Source: Snowella sp.
GTDB taxonomy: Bacteria > Cyanobacteriota > Cyanobacteriia > Cyanobacteriales > Microcystaceae
DNA: 45,316 nucleotides
NCBI GenBank assembly: GCA_003249095.1
Contig: QBMS01000019.1
Location: forward strand, 1 to 45,316
Reading direction: 5' to 3'
The notes beneath the pieces were generated by a model. The model was not told where the DNA came from. It saw nothing but the letters and a program-made list of their open reading frames with translations, and did not search any database. This document shows positions 9,215 to 28,703 of this stretch, piece after piece (position 1 is the stretch's first letter; the number at the start of each line of letters is the position of its first letter). A program made the position numbers and the translations under genes.

Positions 9215-9928
9215 ATGATCGCTCAATTACCAACTATTTATTATCCCGAAAGTGATGGAAAACCAATGGCAGATAATACGAAACAATTTCGCTGGATTCT
9301 GGTGATCGAGCAAAATTTAGATTGGCTCTATGCCCAAGATTCTGAGGTTTTTGTCGCAGGAGATTTGTTTTGGTATCCCGTTGAAGGACGTTCTAATATT
9401 GTGACGGCTCCTGATATTTTGGTCGTTTTCGGCAGACCCAAGGGAGATCGGGGTTCCTACAAACAGTGGGAAGAAGAAAATGTGGCTCCCCAGGTGGTTT
9501 TTGAGATTCTTTCGCCTTCTAACAGTAAAACGGAAATGGATAAAAAATTACTGTTCTATGACCGTTATGGAGTGATGGAATACTATATTTATGACCCCGA
9601 TCGCGACCAATTAGAGGGTTGGCTGAGGGGAGAAAATGGAAGCTTAGAAAGTATTGCAGAAATGCACGCTTGGGTCAGTCCCCGTTTGGGTATCCGCTTT
9701 GATCAATCGGAAGAAGAATTAAAAATTTATTGTCCCGATGGTACGCCCTTTCATTCCTACAATGAGGTTAATATCCTTTTGAAGGAAGAGCGACAACGGG
9801 TAGAAACAGAACAACAACGCGCCGAATTTGAAAAGCAACGTGCCGAATTTGAAAAACAACGCGCCGACGAAATGGAAGCTTTATTAAACCAATATCGCGC
9901 CCAGTTTGGGGATCTGAACCCTTCTTAG
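9215..9928 (+). CDS. Uma2-family (DUF820) PD-(D/E)XK nuclease-like protein
   Basis: A 237-residue protein of the Uma2/DUF820 family, abundant in cyanobacteria and with a predicted restriction-endonuclease-like fold. The core acidic residues sit in APDILVVF and VVFEILSPSN, followed by KLLFYDRYGVMEYYIYDP, typical of the family. The last 50 residues form a charged coiled coil with the unit RAEFEKQ repeated and variant copies before and after it. An AGGAGG ribosome site at 9198-9203 supports the start. The biological role of Uma2 proteins is unsettled; some are linked to mobile elements. Confidence 0.85.
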   Translation: MIAQLPTIYYPESDGKPMADNTKQFRWILVIEQNLDWLYAQDSEVFVAGDLFWYPVEGRSNIVTAPDILVVFGRPKGDRGSYKQWEEENVAPQVVFEILSPSNSKTEMDKKLLFYDRYGVMEYYIYDPDRDQLEGWLRGENGSLESIAEMHAWVSPRLGIRFDQSEEELKIYCPDGTPFHSYNEVNILLKEERQRVETEQQRAEFEKQRAEFEKQRADEMEALLNQYRAQFGDLNPS

Positions 9929-23164: not shown

Positions 23165-23569
23165 ATGAGAGGGATTCCAGAAAAAGTTAAATTAGGATTA
23201 GATGAGTTTTAATGTGGCATCAGACTTTGTTATCAAGGACATCTAACTTCCTTTGAGCAACAGCAGTGGATCGATTGGGCTATTTGGATGTCTGCTAAGT
23301 TCCAACGGATATCCTCTGCCGTTGAGGGGCATAATGGCTACCTATCTGGTCTTCATCACGCAGGTCGGGGATTCACACAACAAACATTGAGAGTGTTAAC
23401 TATCATTCATAATTTTGGGATTAGACGTGACGATGGCACCACCGCCGCACAAAGATTATTCGCTCAATCATTCCCAGATTTATTTGAGTGGGTTGTCCCA
23501 CGTATGGGAGAGTTGCCCAGACCCAGAAGAACTCTCAAATCACCAAAGTACAAAAAGCCTACCCCATAA
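23165..23569 (+). pseudogene. Decayed transposase (DUF6399 type), 3' part
   Basis: An open reading frame with one internal TAA (23210-23212) encodes RGIPEKVKLGLDEF, stop, CGIRLCYQGHLTSFEQQQW, then a C-terminal region containing SSAVEGHNGYLS and DDGTTAAQRLF, and ends at 23569. The second half matches the C-terminus of DUF6399-type transposase-related proteins common in colonial cyanobacteria. The 5' two thirds are missing and no clear terminal repeat remains, so it is a dead remnant. Confidence 0.7.
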
Positions 23570-23696
23570 ACTGTCCCGCCTTAAGTTGGTACCCCAATTT
23601 TCTATTATCAATCTGGAGACGGCGATCGCCTAATCAATAACCCTCTCCTAAAATATGCTCTCCTAACCACTCACTTATAAAAACACGATCCCAAAC

Positions 23697-24317
23697 TTAC
23701 GTACATATTTTTGAGCCTAGATGTTTTAGTATTTGTAATACTTCATAAAGTTCATTATTAGGATTTACCAAAGAAAATAACCGTGAATTTTCATAGTCAT
23801 TTTGTGAAGTCTTTAAAAATAAAAATTCGTTACCATTGGTAATCATACCAAATGTTGGTTGTACTATTTCCGAGTTACTCAACATATAAGCTAAGGCTTG
23901 TGGAATTGCTCTTGTTACGGCAAAATCGCTGCGTTTTGATTCAATAACCAATAACCAAAGTTTATTTTTTACAACTAAGACATCAATTCTTCCTCGAATG
24001 ATTGTGCCTTCGTCTTTCATTTCTAACGCCACACTTGTTTCGGTCTCAATCCGAAAGGGCTTGTGATAAAAACCAGCCAGATCTAGCAAAGGTTCAAGCA
24101 CAACCATCTTCACATTATTTTCTAACATTGGTGGCTCTTCCATTAGTTCCTGAAAGTTAGCCTTCACTCGGTCTAATAAATGTCGTTCTTCTTCACTTAA
24201 GAGCGTAAAAGCCTCTGACAATTCCGTAAAAAAAGCGGGAGATTGAGACATCTGAATCCCAAAATTTTGCTTTAATTCTTTCAGCGTTACATCCTTGGCC
24301 GCGATCGCCTGACTCAT
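23697..24317 (-). CDS. Solitary HsdR-N-like PD-(D/E)XK nuclease
   Basis: A 206-residue protein matching the N-terminal nuclease domain of type I restriction subunit R. The active site is Asp112 (GRIDVLV), Glu126 and Lys128 (LLVIESKRS), with a following Gln in AIPQALAYM, as in that family. The ATPase/helicase part of HsdR is absent, and no hsdM or hsdS lies nearby. I prefer the ATG at 24317 to the TTG at 24323. It is divergent from the CHAT-NB-ARC-TPR gene, whose start is 132 bp away, so they share a promoter region. Solitary copies are frequent in cyanobacteria and of unknown role. Confidence 0.8.
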   Translation of the reverse strand: MSQAIAAKDVTLKELKQNFGIQMSQSPAFFTELSEAFTLLSEEERHLLDRVKANFQELMEEPPMLENNVKMVVLEPLLDLAGFYHKPFRIETETSVALEMKDEGTIIRGRIDVLVVKNKLWLLVIESKRSDFAVTRAIPQALAYMLSNSEIVQPTFGMITNGNEFLFLKTSQNDYENSRLFSLVNPNNELYEVLQILKHLGSKICT

Positions 24318-24449
24318 GATCAATTTTAGTTAGCAGTAATAATCTTAATATTAGTGCAAAAATAAAAGTACAACGCGATCGCCGATCACCTTTCTGGCAT
24401 TTAACAGGTTGGCAGGTATAATTTTAAGAACAGAATCAACCTGAAGCCG

Positions 24450-27400
24450 ATGTTGGAATTAACCCTCAATTTTACGACTGCCGATCAAGTCACTGTTAGC
24501 TTTGACGATGAAACCTCAGACGCGATCGCCTTTAGCTCACCGTTGACGGAAAAGAATCACAAGGATTTGCGCTGGTATATGGAAACCTATGCCAGTGGGC
24601 ACATGACGGAAGTGGATGATCGCCGTGCGGAACAGATTGCGGCGCAGTTAAAGGAATGGGGGAAAGCGTTATTTAACCAGGTTTTTGGTGCGAGGGATGC
24701 TCAACGCTTATTTAATGCTTTTCAGGATAGTCGAGAAGTGGGGCGCGTCGTTACTTTGAATGCAGAACAGCCTAAAATTTTGGCCTTACCCTGGGAATTA
24801 CTGCATGATCCCCAGGGCAATTATTTATTTAACGAAAATCCGCGTATTTCTATCCGTCGCAAATTGAAAAGAGGGGGCAGAAAACCCTTTAAAGTTAACC
24901 CGAAACATCAGTTACATTTACTGTTTGTCATTAGTCGGCCCGATGATGTTGGTTTTCTTGATCCTCGTACAGAGCCGAAAGCGGTACTCAATGCCCTAGC
25001 TGCCAAGGGAATTAATCAGGTGACGGTGGAGTTTTTGCGGCCAGCAACCTTTGATAAATTGATTAAACGCCTAGAAAATACTGACCTTCCCCAGGTAGAT
25101 ATTTTGCATTTTGATGGGCATGGAGTTTTTGATGCCGATGGGGTTTATTTTGACCAAGCAAAACAAATTTTTCCAGAGGGTTACGCAGGGACAAAAGCAG
25201 GAGAAAATAGTCAGTCTAATCGTAAAAATATCGGTTATTTAGTCTTTGAAGAAGAAAACGGTAAAAAGGCGTTAATTGATGCAGAAAAGTTGGGAGATAT
25301 GCTCCATCAACAGGCGGTGAGTCTGGTCTTTTTATCGGCTTGTCAGTCGGGTATGGTCGGGACTTCCGAGGAGTCCGTTGATGAAGAAGCCCTGGGATCG
25401 ATCGCCGTCCGATTAACCAAAACAGGCATTCCCAGTATTATTGCCATGACCTATTCCGTCCTGATTAACTCGACCGAAAAGTTATTAGGGGAATTTTACG
25501 AAAATCTGGCCAATGGTAAAGCGATCGCCGAATCCTTAGACAATGCCCGTCGCCACTTGATCCGCAATCCCGACCGAGGAGAACGCCAACGCGGCCAAAA
25601 ACGCATCACCCTCAAACTCCAGGACTGGTTCCTACCCGCCCTCTACCAATCAGGACAGGATGTCCCCCTTCTCATCAATTCTTCCTCTTTTTTAAGGGAA
25701 GTTGGGAAGATGGGGAGGAGGGATCACCATAATCTTCCCAAACAACCCGAAGCAGGCTTTTTCGAACGGAGCCGCGAACTATGGGAAATCGATCGCTGGT
25801 TCACCCAAAACACCCGACGCATCACCCTTTCTGGCTTTGGTGGTCAGGGCAAAACCTCCTTGGCGATCGAAGCAGGAGCCTGGTTACAAACAACGGGAAT
25901 GTTCAGCAGGGTTTGTTTTGTGGACTATGCCAACTTTCAAAGCGTAGATGCCCTAGCCGTTGCCGTTGCCACCCTGGCCACCGTTCTCCAGCACAGTTTT
26001 CTGGATGCCGAAGCGGTGATCCCCGTCCTGGCCCAAATTCCCACCCTGATCATTTTGGACAATTTGGAAGCCCTGCCTGAAACTGCCCTACAGCCCCTCC
26101 TCACGGCGGCCAAAGTCTGGTCAGAAGTGGGACAAACGCGGCTCCTGTTGACGACTCGTTCCCCTGAGTTGGGTCATGCCGATTATTCCAGTACAAGTTT
26201 AAAGCATCGGTTCTTGCGTTTGGACGGATTAGCGGCTCAGGATGCCCTGGACTATGTGCAACGTTTAATGCAATTTCCCCCCGAACCGACCTATGGGGTT
26301 CCTGCACGGGAAGATTTACTGGATTTATTGGAGTTAGTGGACTTTCATCCCCTTTCCATTAAGGTTTTGGTTCCCCAGTTAAAAGCCCGTCCCTTAACGG
26401 AATTGGGGCTGGCGTTGCAACAGGCGATTTTGGACACCAGTAATCTAGAGGATAAGGATCGCAGTTTGGTGGCTTCCTTGAATTTGTCCTTAGAGCGATT
26501 GGACGAACGAGCCAAGGCCCTCTTGCCCCGTTTAGGTGTGTTTCAGGGAGGAGCCTTTGAGGATGATTTGTTAGCGATTACCGAGTTAACGGAAACGGAT
26601 TGGTCTGTTTTGAGAGGGCAGTTAGTCAGTGCAAGCTTAATTGAATTAGAAACCGTACCAGGCGTTAATTCTCCCTTTATCAAATTTCATCCCACCCTAG
26701 CCCCCGTCCTCCTCCTCAAATTACGAGATCGTTCCCCAAATACCGAAGAAGCCCAACTCCTCGCCCGACACCGAGAACGCTATTATCAACTGTCGCGCTA
26801 TTTGTACTTTGAAGATGACAAAAATCCCGACTTGGCGCGGTCTATCGTGCGACGGGAACTGCCCAACCTGCTTTTCGCAGTGGATCACGCCCTGAGTTTG
26901 CAGGAAGACTGGGCCGTAGAGTTTGTGAATAGTCTCAACAAATTTCTGGATTTTTTTGGACTGAATAAGACTCGCCAAAGCCTGACGGAAAGAGCCTCGC
27001 AACGGGCTAGCGAAGTCGGTTCCAATGATTGGTATTTAGCTCAAGGTCATACAGGAGAACAGTTATGGCAAGAGGGACAAACCGAGCAAGCGGCGGCCAT
27101 TTTCCAGACTATTCTCAATGCCTTGGGAGAAACCGCCAGTTATCAACGCTGTGCAATCTTAAATAGCTTAGGGCGATGTTTAATGAGTCAAAGCCAATCG
27201 CCAGAAGCCGCCACCCTTTACCGTCAAGCGATCGCCGAAGCCCAAGAGTTAGAGGCATCAGACAGCGTGAAAAGACAGATTGGTGCTTTACAAACCGATT
27301 TAGGAAATGTGCTAACAGATATGGGGGACTATGGGGCCGCCCGCACTGCCTACGAACAATCCTTGGTGATCGCTCTGGAATTAGGGGATAAACGAGAGGA

Positions 27401-28220
27401 AGCCGTCACCTTGGGACAACTGGGTACTTTAGCTTATTTTGAAGGAAAACTGGAGGAAGCCCCGCAACGGAACCAAGTCGCTCTCAGCCGTTTTCAGAAC
27501 CTTGGTGAACCTAAAATGGAAGCTGTCTATTGGCATCAGTTGGGCGTGATTTATCAAAAAGCAGAGCAGTGGGCAGAAGCAGACCAGGCCTACCGTGAAT
27601 CGGCCCAAATTAATGAGTTCTATGGCAATTTAACTGAAGTCGCCAGCACTTGGGGACAATTAGCATTACTGAATAAAAAAACTGGAAATCTGGACAGTGC
27701 CGAGGCTTGGTATCGTAAGGCCATTCAAGGGTCTGAGACAGCAGGCGATCGCTTTAATCAATCCCTAGCCCTCAATAACCTGGCTGACCTTTTGCGGCAA
27801 TTCGGCGATCGTCTTCCCGAAGCCCGCCAAGCCGCCGAGGAGTCCCTGGCTATTTCTCAAACCCTAGACCCCAATACCGCCGAAATCTGGACAACCTACC
27901 AAATTTTGGCAGAAATAACCGCCCAACAGGGAGAAACCGCCACAGCCCAGAACTATCGCCGTTTAATGCGTGAAACCTACTTCGAGGCTCCCGTTTGCCG
28001 CCACCACCTGCAACAAGTAGCTCCCCTCATCGAAGCCATTGTGGACAACTGGCCAGACCTAGAACCTCTATTAGCCGATCTCACCGAAAATGGTAGTGGT
28101 GAACTAGCCCAAGTCTTGGCTCGCTTGCAGACAGGAGAACGCAACGAAGACCAACTCTGCCAAAACTTAAATCGAGTAGAGTCCGCTATCCTCCACACCA
28201 TCCTTTCCCGCCTTGGTTAG
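24450..28220 (+). CDS. CHAT protease-NB-ARC-TPR protein (STAND type)
   Basis: A 1256-residue fusion. Residues about 80-400 form a caspase-like CHAT domain with catalytic His224 (HFDGHG) and Cys298 (LSACQSG). Residues about 430-760 form an NB-ARC ATPase with Walker A GFGGQGKTS (Lys468) and Walker B TLIILDN (Asp537). Residues about 870-1180 hold TPR repeats that should sense a ligand. This is the layout of STAND sensors: ligand binding to the repeats drives oligomerisation and activates the N-terminal protease, causing regulated cell death or antiphage response. The gene is intact, with good ORF length and HIP1 sites throughout. The trigger and protease substrate are unknown. Confidence 0.88.
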   Translation: MLELTLNFTTADQVTVSFDDETSDAIAFSSPLTEKNHKDLRWYMETYASGHMTEVDDRRAEQIAAQLKEWGKALFNQVFGARDAQRLFNAFQDSREVGRVVTLNAEQPKILALPWELLHDPQGNYLFNENPRISIRRKLKRGGRKPFKVNPKHQLHLLFVISRPDDVGFLDPRTEPKAVLNALAAKGINQVTVEFLRPATFDKLIKRLENTDLPQVDILHFDGHGVFDADGVYFDQAKQIFPEGYAGTKAGENSQSNRKNIGYLVFEEENGKKALIDAEKLGDMLHQQAVSLVFLSACQSGMVGTSEESVDEEALGSIAVRLTKTGIPSIIAMTYSVLINSTEKLLGEFYENLANGKAIAESLDNARRHLIRNPDRGERQRGQKRITLKLQDWFLPALYQSGQDVPLLINSSSFLREVGKMGRRDHHNLPKQPEAGFFERSRELWEIDRWFTQNTRRITLSGFGGQGKTSLAIEAGAWLQTTGMFSRVCFVDYANFQSVDALAVAVATLATVLQHSFLDAEAVIPVLAQIPTLIILDNLEALPETALQPLLTAAKVWSEVGQTRLLLTTRSPELGHADYSSTSLKHRFLRLDGLAAQDALDYVQRLMQFPPEPTYGVPAREDLLDLLELVDFHPLSIKVLVPQLKARPLTELGLALQQAILDTSNLEDKDRSLVASLNLSLERLDERAKALLPRLGVFQGGAFEDDLLAITELTETDWSVLRGQLVSASLIELETVPGVNSPFIKFHPTLAPVLLLKLRDRSPNTEEAQLLARHRERYYQLSRYLYFEDDKNPDLARSIVRRELPNLLFAVDHALSLQEDWAVEFVNSLNKFLDFFGLNKTRQSLTERASQRASEVGSNDWYLAQGHTGEQLWQEGQTEQAAAIFQTILNALGETASYQRCAILNSLGRCLMSQSQSPEAATLYRQAIAEAQELEASDSVKRQIGALQTDLGNVLTDMGDYGAARTAYEQSLVIALELGDKREEAVTLGQLGTLAYFEGKLEEAPQRNQVALSRFQNLGEPKMEAVYWHQLGVIYQKAEQWAEADQAYRESAQINEFYGNLTEVASTWGQLALLNKKTGNLDSAEAWYRKAIQGSETAGDRFNQSLALNNLADLLRQFGDRLPEARQAAEESLAISQTLDPNTAEIWTTYQILAEITAQQGETATAQNYRRLMRETYFEAPVCRHHLQQVAPLIEAIVDNWPDLEPLLADLTENGSGELAQVLARLQTGERNEDQLCQNLNRVESAILHTILSRLG

Positions 28221-28703
28221 TTTGGGAGAGATGGGGGGATTGAGTTTCAAAGGAATAAGGCGATCAATTACCAGAAATGCGATCGCATCATGGAAGACCC
28301 AGAATATTACAAACTACTTTCTCTATGATCGTTTTGCCCACGACGATACGGGTTAAAATCTGGGGATAGATGTTACTTGCTTGGATTTTTTACTAAACGA
28401 ATTTTTTCGTACAAGTTGACATCTTTGACCCAATTTAACCGATTTTCTATTTTCAATAGGGGGAGGGCGATCGCGTTTCAAAAAATTGGTTAGTGATTAT
28501 CCTGTTTTCATAGACAGGTTAAAAATTCAGGTAGTCTTTCGTTACGTCAAATTACGCGATCGCAAATTTTGAAAATTGGACAAAAAAACAGGTAAAGCCA
28601 AGGATTTTTTCTCCATTGAGTTAAGATATTGAACAACTAATGAATAGGATTCAACCTCTATCACAAGAAATCTCTGATAGCACGAAGCTAAGAAAAATGG
28701 TGC
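28221..28703. other. Noncoding region before pabAB
   Basis: This 483-bp gap holds several HIP1 or HIP1-like sites, a few T-rich runs and no gene-like ORF longer than about 15 codons. I recognise no RNA gene or clear terminator in it. A promoter for the downstream gene is expected near its 3' end. Confidence 0.5.

Follow-up and report, generated by a model that had tools for sequence, protein, structure and literature searches.

A divergent CHAT-STAND-TPR and HsdR_N nuclease gene pair in Snowella, probably transferred together but rarely found side by side elsewhere

Two-gene conflict systems of the EACC1-caspase type have been described (Kaur et al., 2020, eLife 52696), as has canu, a caspase-nuclease defence in which a gated MBL-fold nuclease is encoded downstream of the caspase (Tuck et al., 2025, PMC12799240). 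Here we describe two divergent genes of Snowella sp., one for a CHAT-STAND-TPR protein and one for an HsdR_N-type nuclease, in a window of 45,316 nucleotides (contig QBMS01000019.1, the whole stretch of DNA that was analysed). The large protein is like the EACC1-caspase systems in having a caspase-superfamily (CHAT) N-terminus and variable C-terminal domains. Its relatives add a small hydrophobic-helix gene beside CHAT and, in Chloroflexi, neighbours with EACC1 matches below cut-off. The Snowella locus itself, however, has neither an EACC1 gene adjoining the caspase gene on its 5' side nor the ~140-aa gene of its relatives. As in canu, a caspase-like protease gene adjoins a nuclease gene, but the Snowella nuclease is an HSDR_N protein of the PD-(D/E)XK type rather than a gated MBL-fold enzyme, the two genes are divergent and no gating insert was seen. 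With HsdR of type I restriction systems the nuclease shares the N-terminal HSDR_N domain, but it has no helicase domain and no HsdM or HsdS gene was found adjoining it. The TPR-CHAT protein of Craspase (type III-E CRISPR) also combines a CHAT protease with TPRs, whereas in Snowella a P-loop NTPase stands between the two (CHAT-STAND-TPR), and no Cas7-11 gene was present among the window ORFs examined. The PADLOC candidate PDC-M35B weakly matches the ~140-aa partner of the relatives (best E 9e-5, below clear homology), a protein that the Snowella genome lacks. In the open-licence literature we found no description of either the CHAT-HsdR_N pair or the ~140-aa partner.

The larger gene (24450-28220, + strand) encodes 1256 aa. 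Pfam places a CHAT domain at residues 96-376 (9.9e-31; 24735-25577, +) and TPRs (TPR_12, 3.6e-27) at about residues 870-1176 (27057-27977, +), the putative sensor part. In an alignment of ten CHAT sequences with identities down to 26%, His224 (codon 25119-25121, +) and Cys298 (25341-25343, +) are invariant, and the protein has the domain and both catalytic residues of a CHAT protease. The same alignment showed invariance of Walker A residues G462, G464, G465, G467, K468 (codon 25851-25853, +) and T469, which make up GxGGxGKT, and of the Walker B Asp537; this is the pair of motifs that marks a STAND NTPase. These results agree with the first-pass annotation, which had read both the protease (His224, Cys298) and the ATPase (Lys468) as intact. 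Its label of CHAT-NB-ARC-TPR is upheld by Pfam for the CHAT and TPR parts but not for the middle part (residues 456-605; 25815-26264, +), where AAA_22 and NACHT matches are both below cut-off. There was no NB-ARC match at E 0.01, and STAND P-loop NTPase is therefore the safe label. Against the copy in G004, a genome from another genus of the same family, segments of the CHAT gene have dN/dS values of 0.20-0.54, with the TPR part highest. Outside G004, no CHAT relative above 57% identity was found in 50 genomes of the family, 389 of the order and 386 of the phylum. Plasmid matches were below 60% identity, and a scan of viral contigs gave one distant relative. A profile made from the CHAT alignment found 78 loci genome-wide, while a single CHAT sequence used as query found none.

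The smaller gene (23697-24317, - strand; start ATG at 24317 in an ORF of 23697-24323) encodes a nuclease of 206 aa that matches HSDR_N models alone (Pfam 2.9e-10, residues 38-175). Among 30 homologues, E66, D112, E126-S-K128 and Q140xxxY144 are invariant, and D112, E126 and K128 supply the D...ExK residues of a PD-(D/E)XK nuclease. No HsdM or HsdS gene was found near it in the part of the window ORFs that was scanned with Pfam, in line with the earlier description of a solitary nuclease that has neither helicase nor methylase partners. The window protein has no extra segment relative to its solitary homologues, and its dN/dS of 0.12 against G004 indicates purifying selection. A fold model from the single sequence was set aside (pLDDT 37). 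Of 118 relatives, 75 have members of the family, at most 13 in one genome; Snowella itself has seven. Its closest relatives outside G004 (76-81% identity) belong to distant families. Copies on plasmids are less than 60% identical and are annotated as HsdR N-terminal-domain proteins; the viral contig scan found no relative. A further solitary nuclease gene, for a putative restriction endonuclease of the Uma2 family, lies at 9215-9928 of the window.

The divergent genes are separated by 132 bp, from the ATG at 24317 to that of CHAT, the same gap as was first reported. This intergenic region contains a promoter-like CTGGCA-17-TATAAT 5' of CHAT (24394-24422, +), which is a consensus match alone. 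The transposase remnant reported beside the pair is the C-terminal fragment of a DUF6399 transposase-like gene (23288-23569, +; Pfam 1e-38). In the window, the neighbours of CHAT are HsdR_N and a trpE-like (trp synthase-like) gene, and a carotene-isomerase-like (crtH-like) gene forms the other flank of the pair.

Only one of the 118 relatives, G004, has the same divergent pair. Its HsdR_N is 95% identical at the amino acid level and its CHAT gene 85-95% identical at the nucleotide level. The shared block (23681-28239, ~4.5 kb, 85-95% nucleotide identity) is broken in the intergenic region and ends just beyond both genes. On either side of the pair G004 has a quinone-oxidoreductase-like gene and a likely valyl-tRNA synthetase gene, which are unrelated to the flanks in the window. 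The window crtH-like gene has its best G004 match (73% at the amino acid level) elsewhere in that genome, and the trp gene DNA of the two is barely alignable. We rejected vertical inheritance of the pair because these core genes are much more diverged than the pair. The unrelated flanks of a 4.5-kb block, together with a crtH-like identity of just 73%, suggest that the two genes probably moved together, having passed horizontally between the two lineages or come from a third source. No third copy was found in the 50 family, 389 order and 386 phylum genomes. In G004 the CHAT gene is broken by a premature stop, a frame shift and IS insertions; the HsdR_N frame is still open, and the intergenic region contains ~1 kb of foreign DNA that joins HsdR_N at a GCGATCGC (HIP1) site. 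This insert includes a 188-aa ORF that has no Pfam family (L072:10268-10834). HsdR_N has relatives of 76-81% identity in distant families, whereas CHAT has none above 57% outside G004, which points to different histories. The two genes were thus probably brought together recently.

The usual neighbour of CHAT in other genomes is a different protein. We counted neighbours with HMMs built in the present analysis, and for the 65 order-level loci the count covers the retrieved flanking DNA. A gene for a ~140-aa protein lies beside CHAT at 39 of these 65 loci and at 35 of the 78 genome-wide loci, every one of the latter within 1.1 kb; several CHAT loci end at contig ends, some share one genome and the two sets overlap, so these partner fractions are approximate. 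At the 35 loci it is upstream in the same direction (22), downstream and convergent (12) or downstream in the same direction (1). Both close cyanobacterial relatives of this CHAT protein and distant ones have it, and the taxa include cyanobacteria, gamma- and alphaproteobacteria and Desulfobacteraceae (loci within L118-L127, L128-L177 and L180-L251; for example, L183:11948-12367 and L187:12021-12455, both on the - strand). Two subgroups of the protein are weakly linked (hhalign E 3.5e-5, probability 72%). It has one hydrophobic C-terminal stretch and its model is all-helical (pLDDT 84.6), with no convincing match to a known fold (Foldseek E no better than 0.65, VIA Z at most 4.7). A likeness to Bcl-2 was dropped, as Z values of 2.5-2.9 are at noise level for helical proteins. 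Pfam has no family for the protein and gave no EACC1 match for its cyanobacterial form. In the Snowella genome there was no match to it even at E 10, and none at the CHAT locus. The CHAT tree, in which deep branches are moderately supported, places the window and G004 sequences as one partnerless pair within a clade that mostly carries the ~140-aa gene, so loss in their lineage is the simpler reading. This conserved, unnamed neighbour is a concrete candidate for a substrate or co-factor of a bacterial caspase-like sensor.

As a comparison, HsdR_N is in the flanks of four of the 65 order-level CHAT loci (G004, G245, G307 and G027). It is also divergent from CHAT in G245 (L124), where it is a different paralogue with 39% identity, and is a few kb from CHAT in G307 and G027. 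The G307 gene (L142:14352-15053) is co-directional, behind CHAT and a ~140-aa gene, and the N-terminus of its product is like short antitoxin-like ORFs seen by other CHAT loci. In the genome-wide set HsdR_N is near two of the 78 loci, both times more than 6 kb away. The four loci compare with approximately 0.3-0.4 expected from mean density, about a ten-fold excess over a null that ignores clustering of accessory genes. Ten loci with close HsdR_N homologues (59-81%) have ordinary genes around them and no CHAT within the DNA examined. The first-pass annotation had proposed a survey of homologous loci for consistent absence of either gene near the other, and these counts come close to such absence. 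The nuclease next to CHAT in Snowella is not a conserved CHAT partner. That annotation had offered two options, that the genes act as one module or that the nuclease has nothing to do with CHAT. The first gains from the probable joint transfer of the divergent genes across a genus boundary but loses from the rarity of the pairing and from the ~140-aa protein being the usual neighbour. A joint CHAT-HsdR_N module is thus weakly supported.

These data lead us to favor, as the probable reading, that HsdR_N is a mobile gene unrelated to the partnerless CHAT sensor which it adjoins and that the two genes are functionally separate, having travelled together once. HsdR_N is multicopy and mostly found without CHAT, the ~140-aa protein is far commoner beside CHAT, the histories of the two genes disagree and the G004 CHAT gene is broken. 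Against this, both genera keep the divergent arrangement despite their unrelated flanks, the shared block reaches barely beyond the pair, G245 has a similar arrangement and HsdR_N exceeds its expected density near CHAT when clustering is ignored. From what is known of its domains, the large gene is suspected to be of an anti-phage type and would encode a conflict sensor. Its TPRs may sense a signal, upon which the STAND NTPase would switch and oligomerise and turn on the N-terminal CHAT protease, which would then cleave a target. In most relatives, the ~140-aa helical protein encoded beside CHAT may be this target or a co-factor. With that protein missing from the Snowella genome, the CHAT protein there would act on something encoded elsewhere or alone, or its gene may be a decaying orphan. 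HsdR_N would be one of seven mobile solitary PD-(D/E)XK copies that landed by CHAT.

It is conceivable, if unlikely, that HsdR_N instead replaced the ~140-aa partner as an effector, with CHAT cleaving a pro-nuclease upon infection by analogy with canu. Co-transfer as a block, the missing partner, the purifying selection on HsdR_N and the existence of caspase-activated nucleases (PMC12799240) are consistent with this. So are the differing conserved neighbours of some partnerless CHAT clades, which keep a swapped-in nuclease conceivable. Planctomycete and Thiodictyon relatives encode a DUF900 alpha/beta hydrolase of 450-474 aa downstream of CHAT, adjoining it in L215, L232 (11955-13379) and L242 (12092-13504) and at a distance of 2 kb in L223. 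In Beggiatoa-group genomes, a ~205-aa protein that has no Pfam family is encoded upstream of CHAT (L199:65-682, L202:7086-7772, L210:7257-7880; about 80% identity between them). In Chloroflexi L237 and L249, CHAT has small EACC1-like neighbours whose matches fall short of the Pfam cut-off. A broader form of the idea seems to us rather unlikely: a modular conflict system whose single CHAT-STAND-TPR core is paired with effectors that vary between clades (the ~140-aa membrane-type helical protein, the DUF900 hydrolase, the ~205-aa protein or an EACC1-like protein), the Snowella form having taken on a PD-(D/E)XK nuclease that its CHAT protease would activate. Arguing against replacement, HsdR_N has no additional segment that could act as a gate, G004 lost CHAT while its HsdR_N frame is still open, a single such transfer event is known, and the genes are divergent and form no operon. 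If CHAT did control the nuclease, caspase-activated nuclease defence would gain a second nuclease fold.

The pair could also be a small island of accessory defence genes that moved jointly but work independently, HsdR_N being a restriction-like nuclease in its own right and CHAT a sensor for abortive infection. This fits the joint 4.5-kb transfer, the roughly ten-fold excess near CHAT genes and the adjoining transposase remnant, but we consider it improbable. None of the ten other window proteins scanned matched PADLOC at 1e-5, neither HsdR_N nor CHAT strongly matches a named PADLOC system, and an island of two genes is difficult to distinguish from chance.

Among the CHAT loci with no ~140-aa gene are second CHAT copies in two Nostoc genomes (L179 and L191), both located between ribD-like and mreBCD-like genes.
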